A stretch of 50,922 bases of DNA, taken from contig JAQUYS010000003.1 of the NCBI GenBank assembly GCA_028691765.1, positions 1 to 50,922 on the forward strand, read 5' to 3'. The DNA is from Candidatus Nanoarchaeia archaeon (GTDB lineage: Archaea > Nanobdellota > Nanobdellia > Woesearchaeales > SKGA01). Made by a program: the position numbers and the translations under genes. The notes beneath the pieces were generated by a model that worked only from the letters and a program-made list of their open reading frames with translations, did not search any database and was not told the origin of the DNA. This document shows, piece by piece, positions 12,060 through 30,660 of the stretch. Each line of letters opens with the position of its first letter. The first letter of the stretch is position 1.

Positions 12060-13565
12060 ATGGCAGAAGACCACTTAATACAAGAAAGAAAGAATAAAGT
12101 AGACGAACTTAAAGAAATAGGAATAAATCCCTATCCATATAATTATAAAATTACAAAACATTCTAAACAAATTAAAGAAGAAAATAAAGATTTAGCATCT
12201 GAAACAAAAACTGAAATAAAAGAATCCGTAGCAGGAAGAATTGTTCTATTTAGAAGAATGGGAAAAGCATCCTTTTTAACTATTCAAGACGAAGATGGAC
12301 AAATACAAGCTTATTTACGTAGCGATGATATAGGTGAAGAAAAATACGACCTTCTTAAAAAAATAGAATTAGGAGACATAATTGGAGTTAGAGGAAAAGT
12401 ATTTACAACAAAAACAGGAGAAATATCTATTTATGTTGAAGATTTTGAATTATTATGTAAATCAATTAAATCATTACCAGATAAATTTCATGGAATACAA
12501 GACATGGAGATAAAATATAGAAAAAGACACTTAGACTTAATTATGAATTCCCAATCCAAAGAAATATTCAAAAAAAGACTGTTAATAATGCAAGCAATAA
12601 GAGAGTTTATGATTTCCAGAGGATTTTTAGAAGTAGAAACACCAATACTCCAAGAACAATACGGTGGTGCAGCGGCTAAACCATTCAAAACATTTCACAA
12701 CGATCTGAAAATGGAAATGTTCTTAAGAATATCGCCCGAATTATATTTAAAAAAATTATTGGTTGGAGGCTTTGAAAAAGTTTTCGATATAAATAAAAAT
12801 TTTAGAAACGAAAGCATAGATACAACACATAATCCAGAATTCACCATGATGGAAGCATATCAAGCTTACGCAGATTACGAAGATATGATGGATTTAATGG
12901 AAAATTTATATGATTTTGTAGCTAAAAAAGTTTTAGGAACAACTAAAGTAATGTTTAAAGGACAAGAAATAGATGTAAAAGCTCCTTGGGATAGAGTAAC
13001 CATGTTAGGAGCAATAGAAGAGTATGCAGGAATTGATGCCACAAACATGAGTAAAAGTGATTTAGAAGATTTCATTATTAAAAACAATATTGAATTTGAT
13101 AAAGAACTTAATTGGGGAAATTTAGTTGCAGCAATATTCGAACATTTCTGCGAAGATAAATTCATAAACCCTACATTCGTTATAGATCACCCAAGAGAAA
13201 CATCTCCACTTTGTAAAAAATTAAGAACTGGCGATGAAAGATTAATAGAACGATTTGAACCATTTTGTATGGGTATGGAATTAGGAAATGCATACTCAGA
13301 ACTAAATGATCCAATTGAACAAAGAAGACTTCTTGAAGATCAACAAAGACAATTAAATGCAGGAAATGAAGAAGCAAATCCAATAGATGAATCTTTCTTA
13401 GATGCAATAGATACAGGAATGCCTCCTGCCGGTGGAATCGGCGTTGGAATAGACAGAATGATTATGATTTTATTAGGACAAGAATCTATAAGAGATATAA
13501 TATTCTTCCCAACAATGAAACCAGAACAGAAAACAGTTAACAGCGAATCAGAGGACAGAAAATGA
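12060..13565 (+). CDS. lysS: Lysyl-tRNA synthetase, class II
   Basis: Class II motifs: KYRKRHLDLIMN, FRNESIDTTHNPEFTMMEAYQAY, GMPPAGGIGVGIDRMIMILLGQESIRDIIFFPTMKPE. Confidence 0.96.
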   Translation: MAEDHLIQERKNKVDELKEIGINPYPYNYKITKHSKQIKEENKDLASETKTEIKESVAGRIVLFRRMGKASFLTIQDEDGQIQAYLRSDDIGEEKYDLLKKIELGDIIGVRGKVFTTKTGEISIYVEDFELLCKSIKSLPDKFHGIQDMEIKYRKRHLDLIMNSQSKEIFKKRLLIMQAIREFMISRGFLEVETPILQEQYGGAAAKPFKTFHNDLKMEMFLRISPELYLKKLLVGGFEKVFDINKNFRNESIDTTHNPEFTMMEAYQAYADYEDMMDLMENLYDFVAKKVLGTTKVMFKGQEIDVKAPWDRVTMLGAIEEYAGIDATNMSKSDLEDFIIKNNIEFDKELNWGNLVAAIFEHFCEDKFINPTFVIDHPRETSPLCKKLRTGDERLIERFEPFCMGMELGNAYSELNDPIEQRRLLEDQQRQLNAGNEEANPIDESFLDAIDTGMPPAGGIGVGIDRMIMILLGQESIRDIIFFPTMKPEQKTVNSESEDRK

Positions 13566-13876
13566 AACACAAATTAACGTTCAAAGAATTTATGGAAAAT
13601 AGTTGGGCAATTTGGGCAATTTTAATAGGTTATGGTTCTTTATTCTTTTTAATGCCTACTGGATTAGAAATGGGTGTTGCAGGAGATTTTATGTTTTTAT
13701 ATTTACCAACTATATTTGTTATTGGTTTAGTTCTAAATATTAAAAAAAATAAAAAAAATAAAACTAAATTTTACAAAGATTGGAAATTTTGGCTTTGGTG
13801 CATTCCTTTAATATTTTTGATTGGATTTTGTACATATGTTTGTTTATTTATTTACTTCGTGAATGGTTTTATTTAA
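13562..13876 (+). CDS. Small hypothetical membrane protein
   Basis: 104-aa ORF with about three hydrophobic segments; ATGA overlap with lysS stop. Confidence 0.55.
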   Translation: MKHKLTFKEFMENSWAIWAILIGYGSLFFLMPTGLEMGVAGDFMFLYLPTIFVIGLVLNIKKNKKNKTKFYKDWKFWLWCIPLIFLIGFCTYVCLFIYFVNGFI

Positions 13877-13880
13877 TTTT

Positions 13881-13989
13881 TCAGTGAGTTAAGTTCGAAG
13901 AACTTATACTCGCTACCGTCGTCATATGGTAATAGACGGCGTAGTCATATGTTAATAGACGATGTAAGCTTCTTCCCAACAATGAAACC
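13881..13989 (+). repeat. Repeat unit A: hairpin + two 20-mer copies + partial lysS 3'-tail copy
   Basis: Hairpin gagttAAGTTCgaaGAACTTatactc (13886-13911); 20-mers gtcgtcatatggtaatagac (13918-13937) and gtagtcatatgttaatagac (13941-13960); ttcttcccaacaatgaaacc (13970-13989) identical to lysS 13503-13522. Confidence 0.85.
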
Positions 13990-14032
13990 GCAACAAGAAG
14001 ATAAAAAATATAACTAGATTAATTAATTTTTT

Positions 14033-14149
14033 TAGTGAGTTAAGTTTTGAAAAAACTTATACTCGCCAACGTCGTCATATGTTAATAGACCTAAGAAACC
14101 AGAACAGAAAGCAGTTAACCGCGAACAGAACTCAGAGAAGAAAGAATAA
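14033..14149 (+). repeat. Repeat unit B: hairpin + 20-mer + second partial lysS 3'-tail copy
   Basis: Hairpin gagttAAGTTTTgaaAAAACTTatactc (14037-14064); 20-mer gtcgtcatatgttaatagac (14071-14090); aaaccagaacagaaagcagttaac (14096-14119) matches lysS 13518-13541 at 23 of 24 bases. Confidence 0.85.
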
Positions 14150-14323
14150 TTTTGTGTATACAAGTGAAACGAGTATACGCAGGAGTTCGCCTAGACGATA
14201 CTGGCTTCGGAAGATTTACGGTTATTTATCGGAAAAATTTATAAATAAGTTCAATTTAATAAAATAAAATGATCCCCAGTGATTCTTCGGGGTTGCTGGA
14301 TGATTTTTTCTTTAGAGGGTTTA

Positions 14324-26592: not shown

Positions 26593-28596
26593 ATGCAATT
26601 TAAAGGATTAACATTAGATCAATTTCAAATAGATTCTATTAAAGCAATCGATGCAGGAGATTCATGTGTAGTTTCCGCATCAACAGGAACAGGAAAAACT
26701 TTAATCGCGGAATACATAATAAGTAAACATCTTCCGGAAGGGAATGTCACAATCTACACAGCACCAATTAAAGCACTCTCAAACCAAAAATACAAAGATT
26801 TCTGCAGAGATTATGGAAAAGAACAAGTTGGACTTTTAACAGGAGATTTAGATATAAATCATACAGCACCAATACTCATAATGACAACAGAAATTTATAG
26901 AAATATGTTGTTAACAAATGATGAATTATTAGACAGAGTAAAATATGTTATTTTCGATGAAGTGCATTACATAAACGATATTCAAAGAGGAAGCGTTTGG
27001 GAAGAATCAATTATTTTTTCTCCAAATCATGTGAGATTTCTTTGTTTGAGTGCAACAATTCCAAATTACGAACAATTTGCAAAATGGATACAAACCATAA
27101 AAAAACATACTGTACAAACTGTTAATTATAAACATCGACCTGTTCCATTAAATCACATAGTCTTTGATAGACGATTAGGTTTAACAACAATAGAAGAAAT
27201 AGAAAAAGATAAAATCAAAGACGAAGAATATTTGTCCTCTTTAGATATTGGACCAGGCGGAAGAAGAAAAAAGAAATTCCCACACCAAAATCAAAAAAAA
27301 TTTTTACATGAAGTAAAACACCCACATCACATCGATGTAATAAACGAAATCTTAGAAAAAGTTCCAGCATTATATTTTTGTTTTTCAAGAAAAAAAACAG
27401 AAGATTTTGCAAAAGAATTAGCATCAAAAAAAGATTTACTTTCATCACAAGAACGATTAGATGTGACAAATTATGTTAGACAAAATATAAATCAAAATAT
27501 TGCATCAATGGACACAACAAGAAATTTAAGAAACACATTAGCAAAAGGAATTGGATTTCATCATTCAGGGATGTTGCCCGCATTAAAAAATATCGTTGAA
27601 CACCTATTTGGTTTAGGTTTAATCAAAGTCCTGTACACAACAGAAACATTTTCAGTTGGAATAAACATGCCTGCAAAAACAGTAGTATTTGACGATTTAA
27701 ACAAATACGATGGAATAACTTTTAGAATGTTAAACTCAAAAGAATATTTTCAAATAGCAGGAAGAGCAGGAAGAAGAGGAATAGATAAAGAAGGAACAGT
27801 AATATCTTTAATAAACAGAAGATTAACAAACTTAGAAAAATTAACATCTATATCTACAATTGATGATGATCCAATAATCTCGCAATTCAAATTAAGTATA
27901 AACACAATATTAAATTTAATACATAATTTCGATAATAAAACACAAGAAATTTTGTTAAGAAGTAACTTCGATCATTTTGTTAGAACAACTCAAAATCAAA
28001 AAGCAGTTAGAGTAATTGCATCATTCAAAAACAAAATAAAGAAATTAGAAAAATTAGAATTTATACAAAATACAAAAAAAATGTCTAACGTTGAAGGAGG
28101 AGCATATTTAGATTATGACAAAGATTATGTTCTAACTCCAAAAGGATTATTTGCGAGAAATATTTATTCACAAGAAATTCCATTAACGGAATTATTCTTC
28201 ATGAAAAACATACATAAAATTTCAGATTTAGATTTACTCATAATTCTAGCAACATTAGTTTACGAAGAAAGAATAAACGATTATTTCATGATTAAAGGTT
28301 GCGAAAAAACATACGATAGAATAAATAAAATAATTCAAGGAACAATTTTAGAAATTGAATTAAATAAAATCTCTTTAAAACGAATGATTAATTATGTAAC
28401 TTGTTGGGCTAATGGTGGAAAATTCTTAGAACTTATGAAATACACCAACTTACAAGAAGGAGACATTATACGATTCTTTAGAAGATTAATAGATGTTTTA
28501 TCTCAGTTAAAACACGCAACAGAAGATGAAGAATTAAAAGACCGAATGACAAACATTTCTAAATTAATTGATAGAGATTTAGTAAGAGAAATATAA
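26593..28596 (+). CDS. Ski2/Mtr4-like DExH superfamily 2 helicase
   Basis: VSASTGTGKTLIAEY (Walker A), VIFDEVHYIND (DEVH), LSATIPN, TETFSVGINMPAKTVVF, QIAGRAGRRGID. Start at MQFKGLTLDQFQ. Confidence 0.92.
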   Translation: MQFKGLTLDQFQIDSIKAIDAGDSCVVSASTGTGKTLIAEYIISKHLPEGNVTIYTAPIKALSNQKYKDFCRDYGKEQVGLLTGDLDINHTAPILIMTTEIYRNMLLTNDELLDRVKYVIFDEVHYINDIQRGSVWEESIIFSPNHVRFLCLSATIPNYEQFAKWIQTIKKHTVQTVNYKHRPVPLNHIVFDRRLGLTTIEEIEKDKIKDEEYLSSLDIGPGGRRKKKFPHQNQKKFLHEVKHPHHIDVINEILEKVPALYFCFSRKKTEDFAKELASKKDLLSSQERLDVTNYVRQNINQNIASMDTTRNLRNTLAKGIGFHHSGMLPALKNIVEHLFGLGLIKVLYTTETFSVGINMPAKTVVFDDLNKYDGITFRMLNSKEYFQIAGRAGRRGIDKEGTVISLINRRLTNLEKLTSISTIDDDPIISQFKLSINTILNLIHNFDNKTQEILLRSNFDHFVRTTQNQKAVRVIASFKNKIKKLEKLEFIQNTKKMSNVEGGAYLDYDKDYVLTPKGLFARNIYSQEIPLTELFFMKNIHKISDLDLLIILATLVYEERINDYFMIKGCEKTYDRINKIIQGTILEIELNKISLKRMINYVTCWANGGKFLELMKYTNLQEGDIIRFFRRLIDVLSQLKHATEDEELKDRMTNISKLIDRDLVREI

Positions 28597-28600
28597 AAAA
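28568..28600 (+). repeat. 33-bp direct repeat, left copy (helicase 3' end)
   Basis: ttgatagagatttagtaagagaaatataaaaaa, identical to 29256-29288. Confidence 0.95.
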
Positions 28601-28618
28601 CAAAAATTGATTCTTAAT

Positions 28619-29191
28619 TTAAACATATTTATTTTTCAACACAGATTTAGGTATTGTTGTGTTAATTTTTTCTCGAATTTCTTCCAAATGTTTTCGATAA
28701 AAACCAAATTCAGGCAATTTAATTGCATTAGGAAGTACAATTTTCTTCCAAATTTTTTCATACTTTTTAAATTCACCTAAACAATCCGTCAGAGTTTGAA
28801 GTTGTTTTAATTGTAAATCTCTCAAATAATTATTTGGCGTATGACCTTGAATAAAGATGGGTGTTAAATTTTTATCTAATTTGTAGACTGCACTCACAAA
28901 TTTTAAAACCTTGTCCAACTCAGTAAGATTGTTTTGTCTATTTAGAAAATCATCTATGAAATAACATTTAAATTTTTGAGAGTATTTAACAACTTCTTCA
29001 GGAGTTATACTTCCAAAATATTCAAATGAAACACAAGGACCTTTAGGTAAAACAACTTTCTTCAAGAAGTTTTTCCTTTCAACATTAAATTCAGCATCAT
29101 TCACAATAAACATTAAAGAGTTCTTACTGGGTGCTTTTGAATAAGGAAGCCCTTCAATTCTAAATACTTGATTATTTTTACGTTTAGCCAT
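28619..29191 (-). CDS. Hypothetical protein, flanked by duplicated helicase tail
   Basis: ~190-aa ORF, no recognised motif; TATA-like tttatatatt upstream. Confidence 0.6.
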   Translation of the reverse strand: MAKRKNNQVFRIEGLPYSKAPSKNSLMFIVNDAEFNVERKNFLKKVVLPKGPCVSFEYFGSITPEEVVKYSQKFKCYFIDDFLNRQNNLTELDKVLKFVSAVYKLDKNLTPIFIQGHTPNNYLRDLQLKQLQTLTDCLGEFKKYEKIWKKIVLPNAIKLPEFGFYRKHLEEIREKINTTIPKSVLKNKYV

Positions 29192-29255
29192 ATTTTTCAC
29201 CTGTTTGAAAAAACCTAAATCTAGTTCGGTTTATATATTTTGTCCTTAAGAAGGT

Positions 29256-29288
29256 TTGATAGAGATTTAGTAAGAGAAATATAAAAAA
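29256..29288 (+). repeat. 33-bp direct repeat, right copy (orphan helicase 3' tail, DRDLVREI*)
   Basis: Identical to 28568-28600; following attcttaatctaaaca (29292-29307) resembles 28610-28625. Confidence 0.95.
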
Positions 29289-29312
29289 GTTATTCTTAAT
29301 CTAAACAATTAA

Positions 29313-30425: not shown

Positions 30426-30544
30426 GCCTTGATAGTGTAGTCCGGCCTATCATATCGCCCTGTCGAGGCGATGACCCGGGTTCGAAAACTCAGCAACTGG
30501 CTAATCGACAGCCAAGTGCTGTATCGATTGTCCCGGTCAAGGCG
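30426..30544 (+). tRNA. tRNA-Asp(GTC) with 44-nt intron in the T-loop
   Basis: Acceptor GCCTTGA/TCAAGGC, G73; anticodon arm TCGCC-CTGTCGA-GGCGA; T-stem CCGGG-TTCGAA[intron 30487-30530]T-CCCGG. Confidence 0.9.
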
Positions 30545-30553
30545 CTTTGTTGT

Positions 30554-30660
30554 GAGCTGGTGGCTCAGTCTGGAGAATTAATCGTATTGATTTTTTCGGA
30601 CACTAGAGCACCTGACTTTTAATCAGGTGGTCGCGAGTTCAAATCTCGTCCAGCTCGCCA
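30554..30660 (+). tRNA. tRNA-Lys(TTT) with 30-nt intron in the D-loop, CCA encoded
   Basis: Acceptor GAGCTGG/CCAGCTC, G73, CCA; D-arm GCTC-AGTCTGG[intron 30574-30603]TA-GAGC; anticodon arm CCTGA-CTTTTAA-TCAGG; T-arm TTCAAAT. Confidence 0.9.

Follow-up and report, generated by a model that had tools for sequence, protein, structure and literature searches.

The window analysed here, a stretch of 50,922 nucleotides, is contig C46 of genome G000 (1,093,016 bases in 99 contigs, ~30% GC), which its genes mark as archaeal. A helicase gene in this window has its 3′ end repeated downstream, and the features of the locus are as follows.

26593..28596, plus strand: Ski2/Hel308-like DEAD-box helicase with a C-terminal DSHCT domain, the host gene (Pfam DEAD 1.1e-26, DSHCT 9.2e-26)
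28568..28600, plus strand: first tail copy, T, comprising the end of the helicase coding sequence, the stop codon and a trailer (33/33 identity to 29256-29288)
28610..28625, plus strand: D, the downstream part of the first copy past an indel, ATTCTTAATTTAAACA (read from the sequence and aligned)
28619..29191, minus strand: ORF190, the sole ORF of the insert, 190 aa (ORF list, profile searches)
29244..29254, plus strand: short hairpin CCTT-AAG-AAGG, ending 1 base before T′ (suggestive only)
29256..29288, plus strand: second tail copy of the helicase, T′ (33/33 identity to 28568-28600)
29292..29307, plus strand: D′, the downstream part of the second copy past the indel, ATTCTTAATCTAAACA (read from the sequence)

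Pfam search of the helicase coding sequence returned DEAD, Helicase_C and DSHCT domains, and the protein ends in ...LIDRDLVREI*. A first-pass annotation had described its tail as a perfect 33-bp repeat with similarity resuming past a short indel, and the segment between the copies as carrying one minus-strand ORF and no recombinase. These observations proved exact in every coordinate: the similarity extends 16 more bases past the indel (28610-28625 versus 29292-29307), and neither the ORFs nor the profile searches gave a recombinase gene within the insert. The repeat is the longest exact direct repeat in the window at a spacing of ≤4 kb, and the chance expectation for one of this kind is about 4e-11. 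ORF190 has no family match above cut-off in Pfam or NCBIfam and no homologues among 352 further genomes from the order, in plasmids or in viral contigs; its structure prediction is poor (pLDDT 50) and unsuited to a fold search. The composition of the insert is ordinary (GC 0.27 versus a gene median of 0.296). Hairpins like the one just before T′ are found at 1% of random positions, and the stretch around it folds no better than shuffled sequence.

In three relatives from the same family the helicase C-terminus is conserved (LIDRDLVS..) and unrelated sequence follows directly after it, so the tail duplication appears to have arisen in the lineage of G000 itself. The helicase arrangement is missing from these relatives, which rules out the old, static duplication that had been named as the alternative.

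The second host gene in the window, which the first-pass annotation had mentioned as another case of a duplicated tail and which we take to be lysS, lies further upstream. A short hairpin element, here called E, occurs three times within the locus.

12060..13565, plus strand: lysS, the second host gene (NCBIfam lysine--tRNA ligase, 6e-203)
about 13494-13565, plus strand: first (functional) lysS tail, within lysS
13562..13876, plus strand: 104-aa, hydrophobic-rich ORF, a possible cargo, between tail 1 of lysS and E copy 1 (ORF list)
13884..13937, plus strand: E copy 1 (cmsearch R1 62.3 bits, E-value 2.7e-15)
13961..14017, plus strand: second lysS tail (...DVSFFPTMKPQQEDKKYN*), imperfect, 19/22 first bases matching the lysS tail
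14035..14090, plus strand: E copy 2 (49.6 bits, E-value 1.5e-11)
14091..14149, plus strand: third lysS tail (...KKPEQKAVNREQNSEKKE*), imperfect, 19/22 first bases matching
14154..14205, plus strand: E copy 3, with no tail copy after it (49.5 bits, E-value 1.7e-11)

The lysS tail thus recurs twice downstream, imperfectly, in the order tail 1, 104-codon ORF, E, tail 2, E, tail 3, E. No tail on another contig fits the second copy equally well. The 104-aa ORF has no NCBIfam match above cut-off and the lysS inserts contain no recombinase. Judging from this order, the locus is best read as the product of successive events. We considered CTTCGGAAGATTTCCGG, which follows the last E at lysS and at C23, as an attachment site, and rejected it since it also stands in front of other genes and resembles a promoter motif. 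A palindromic sequence, TTTCGGAAGATTTCCGG, is found at C35, C2, C23 and position 14205 of the window, a short way ahead of TATA-like sequence and the start codons of several genes, and is a possible regulator site.

All 1.09 Mb of the genome were scanned for duplicated gene tails by comparing the last 90 bases of each gene plus 30 bases downstream with the following 3 kb, at a score threshold of ≥20, with CRISPR, paralogues resembling those of diversity-generating retroelements (DGRs) and other repeats set aside. Scores of at least 20 were obtained for 23 tails versus 15 gene heads (upstream), 5 gene heads (downstream) and 2 gene middles, an excess gauged against other gene parts within G000 only; several of the gene-head matches are paralogous N-termini (pilin-like) or E loci viewed from the next gene. 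No downstream tail match in reverse orientation reached a score of 20 anywhere in the genome. Clean tail duplications are found at C88, C57, C44, C78, C39 (two), C85, C23, C62 and C91 besides the helicase and lysS. The genome-wide excess that the first-pass annotation had proposed looking for is therefore present, and it falls in unrelated genes, each keeping its C-terminus or RNA 3′ end, as had been supposed for the helicase. Two groups of sequences of the kind set aside deserve mention in their own right. At C59 (1-8 kb) and C88 (17-26 kb; L267, L268), reverse transcriptases are accompanied by small tyrosine recombinases and by paralogues in tandem whose 3′ ends are nearly identical, in a DGR-like arrangement, and C36:9300-11900 (L070) holds a CRISPR array with the repeat CTCCGCGCCCAGAATCCAATAAAACAAGGATTGAAAC.

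The duplicated tails are 15-93 bases long, and on inspection their starts share no common motif or core sequence. T and T′ are identical or almost so at C88, C44 and C39 and divergent elsewhere. Across the pairs, 16 of the 30 codons that differ do so silently (53%, versus 16% expected under neutrality). This fraction fits one copy under constraint beside one free copy as well as two formerly coding copies and so cannot decide the mechanism; since the first of these would yield the same 53%, we do not claim a foreign origin of T from the silent changes.

Reading of the individual sites revealed that E sits between both tails at most of them. In G000 it spans ~54 bases (50-60) and consists of two hairpins, GTGAGTTAA-loop-TTATACTCGC and, after a linker, GCC-T-AGT-gtg-ACT-GGC. 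Covariance model search gave 16 copies in the genome, at C85, C88, C44, C18, C78 (two), C39 (two), C9, lysS (three), C62, C23, C54 and, more weakly, C42. The model was built from 13 of the 16 (C39:15030 and C42 were left out), and because thirteen copies entered it, the copy scores are not independent. Stem 1 has two-sided changes in 7 of its 13 pairs and a covariation score of 0.265 versus 0.114 in shuffles, above all 500 of them, and individual copies fold into hairpins with an unpaired base. For 12 of the 16 copies, a copy of the host-gene tail begins at the first base past E; for 11 of these no tail from another contig matches equally well, and for C23, the twelfth, 0.26% of such tails do. 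The copies without a following tail are those at C18, C9 and C42 and the last one at lysS. E points in the direction of the host gene in all 12 tail-supported cases, and its hosts are unrelated, including lysS, an IscU-like gene (identified by eye), the 5S rRNA gene, at whose 3′ end E lies, and several others. At C18:1-273 (L112), a Hel308-like reading frame ends at an E copy, as judged by eye.

The first-pass annotation had further proposed a common mechanism inserting single-gene cassettes at gene 3′ ends. The common mechanism has support at lysS and about nine other loci but not at the helicase, whose insert contains no E (best E-model score 4.1 bits with all filters off). The single-gene cassette reading proved too narrow: what the loci share is a hairpin element of 50-60 bases, and most inserts between duplicated tails carry no gene. 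Since the helicase insert has neither E nor a convincing hairpin, its tie to the E class is by analogy, through a shared outcome, and it is the least certain member of the tail-duplication class. For this locus there is close to an even chance that an ordinary local duplication of ~60 bases, or homologous integration of a fragment, took place, after which or with which the orphan gene arrived, in no relation to E. The insert lacks E, its composition is ordinary, and C57 and C91 show that tail duplications without E exist. On the other hand, two gene-end events preserving the C-terminus within one 50-kb window, amid a genome-wide class of such events, would then be a coincidence. The helicase insert could also be a relative of the E units by outcome, perhaps inserted by a different tail-preserving element.

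Beyond G000, none of 58 relatives of the order has the E core, and a scan of public genomes found it again in distant DPANN genomes. With a larger draw of genomes it appeared in one distant family of the same order (that of G095), in which E is longer than in G000 and a family-specific model matches 24 of 49 genomes, with up to 17 copies. For a minority of the copies in this family, a copy of a gene 3′ end stands on either side of E, which is always in the sense orientation; the hosts are tRNA genes (L185/L300, L194, L202, L225, L331), 5S rRNA (L320) and one protein gene (L311), and L194 and L202 may go back to a single inherited event. In G400, from another family, E lies at the 5S rRNA 3′ end. 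Two weak matches in G041 were set aside, as no tail duplication was seen there, as were two viral-contig matches to the E core that are GC-rich and look like chance.

In the majority of cases in the G095 family, E is reversed inside a tRNA T-loop and the insert has complementary ends and a near-constant left end, GACTTTC. Of 42 E matches, most lead into the reversed T-loop motif and have a GACTTTC-like left end in common. Inserts of this form are as expected for bulge-helix-bulge introns, to judge from their sequence. The T-loop inserts carrying the reverse complement of E (e.g. L188, L312, L226, L319) occupy many different tRNA genes, and look like a mobile bulge-helix-bulge intron family. 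In addition, inverted E pairs ~16 bases apart lie within a multicopy repeat of ~250 bases at C6, C8, C20, C30 and C38 of G095 (L229, L236, L238, L240, L242). The window itself has two tRNA genes with inserts that were identified by eye: a tRNA-Asp with a T-loop insert at ~30426-30544, missed by ARAGORN, and a tRNA-Lys with a D-loop insert at ~30553-30658, missed by ARAGORN and partly detected by Rfam.

The tail-E-tail architecture recurs across G000 in one orientation, around a co-varying fold, and is present in distant DPANN genomes. As the source of these loci we favour, at somewhat less than an even chance, small mobile insertions that carry a substitute gene tail and join the chromosome by att-like integration of a circle. 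The point of entry would be some 15-90 bases before a gene's 3′ end, and the insertion would supply a replacement end, so that the gene, now ending in the incoming T, remains whole, with the displaced former tail, T′, surviving as a scar. Such a unit would usually read [T - short trailer - E], with the last base of E abutting the old tail, and its integrating form would be a circle joining the right end of E to the gene-tail copy. A putative enzyme would recognise folded E and use the tail homology instead of a fixed core. The direction of events, with the tail arriving with the unit, is our inference. At the helicase, the same end product (gene-T-insert-T′) would have been reached with a one-gene insert and without E. 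Integration of a tail-carrying unit is favoured because the right border of E is exact, its orientation constant and the folded site conserved, and G000 has nine tyrosine recombinases. Against it, the tail starts lack the shared core that a classical integrase would need, the helicase and lysS inserts contain no recombinase, and the remaining units have no room for such a gene. The helicase insert has no E, nor do the tail duplications at C57 and C91. Finally, at one tRNA-Val gene (L225 / L211) an intron with the complementary ends AACTGCGTT / AACGCAGTT interrupts the T-loop of the second tail and is missing from the first, a difference that suggests a step through RNA, or a tail of foreign origin, more than plain DNA integration.

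The main rival to the insertion of a tail-carrying unit is an RNA-templated origin, which we consider unlikely, whereby the 3′ end of a transcript would be joined to E RNA and reverse-transcribed, and the cDNA built in just upstream of the old tail. Copying from RNA explains why tails are always gene 3′ ends (mRNA, tRNA and 5S rRNA), why E is always in the sense orientation and why the new tail of tRNA-Val is intronless while the old one retains its intron. The right border of E is as sharp as an RNA end, three reverse transcriptases are found in G000, and the reverse complement of E is intron-like sequence in the tRNAs of another family. However, the intron difference is a single one, in which the splice-point base is not an exact match, two of the three reverse transcriptases belong to DGR-like loci with targets of their own, no adenine-specific changes were seen, and there is no known means of joining E to RNA ends.

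The simplest explanation, though an improbable one, is a long target-site duplication, with E as a non-autonomous transposon inserting at widely staggered nicks, 15-95 bases being duplicated and only insertions whose duplication takes in the stop codon surviving: the near-identity of T and T′ at C88, C44 and C39 (others diverge) and a silent fraction about right for one constrained and one free copy agree with it, yet a DNA transposon should insert both ways, and E runs with the gene in each of the 12 supported cases of G000 and in every such case of the other family, which leaves orientation unexplained, and duplications of this length are unusual. A Y1 (HUH) transposase as the driver is ruled out, as PF01797 is absent from G000 and was positive in 6 of 14 control genomes. 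We also rejected a DGR origin of the tails, DGR-like arrays at C59 and C88 notwithstanding, since the changes are not adenine-specific.

Returning to the tail-carrying insertion, it is conceivable, if rather doubtful, that these loci represent an undescribed class of archaeal mobile element made up only of a small folded sequence and a borrowed gene tail, entering the 3′ ends of protein, tRNA and 5S rRNA genes harmlessly, possibly via an RNA copy, and akin to mobile introns of tRNA T-loops. Should such a class exist, DNA could join a compact genome at gene ends, leaving genes unbroken, in a unit too small to code, and small DPANN insertions that look enzyme-less would be tied to the spread of tRNA introns. 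The succession of tail, hairpins and tail is a simple signature, searchable in any genome.

A literature search that reached few subscription journals returned no description of the tail-E-tail arrangement, and its resemblance to known systems is partial. E differs from a miniature inverted-repeat element (MITE) in being two separate hairpins, not terminal inverted repeats, with duplications of 15-93 bases, not short ones. Inspection of the T/T′ pairs shows changes at every kind of base, unlike the adenine-specific changes of a DGR. Non-autonomous IS200/IS605 elements and REP hairpins are like E in being short, with hairpins having an unpaired base; tail duplication is not known to be part of either mechanism. 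Integron cassettes with a folded attC resemble these loci in that a small unit ends in a bulged fold and additions are successive, as at lysS; here, there is no attI and no identified IntI, and the tails are homologous to the target gene. In Caldiarchaeum, a tRNA-Thr gene is disrupted by a 1.8-kb element with a predicted recombinase and a 5′ fragment; this insertion leaves a tRNA fragment, and a simultaneous gain of an intron was proposed (PMC3293823). The present case differs in its element of 50-60 bases, its 3′ tails and its inclusion of protein genes. Closest are the integrative elements and genomic islands that enter gene 3′ ends by a tyrosine integrase with attL/attR sites: there too, direct repeats of the host 3′ end flank the insert, the incoming copy restores the gene and tRNA genes are targets, whereas the units described here are ~80-200 bases long (690 at the helicase), with no integrase inside and no common core at the crossover, and one E family enters many unrelated genes.
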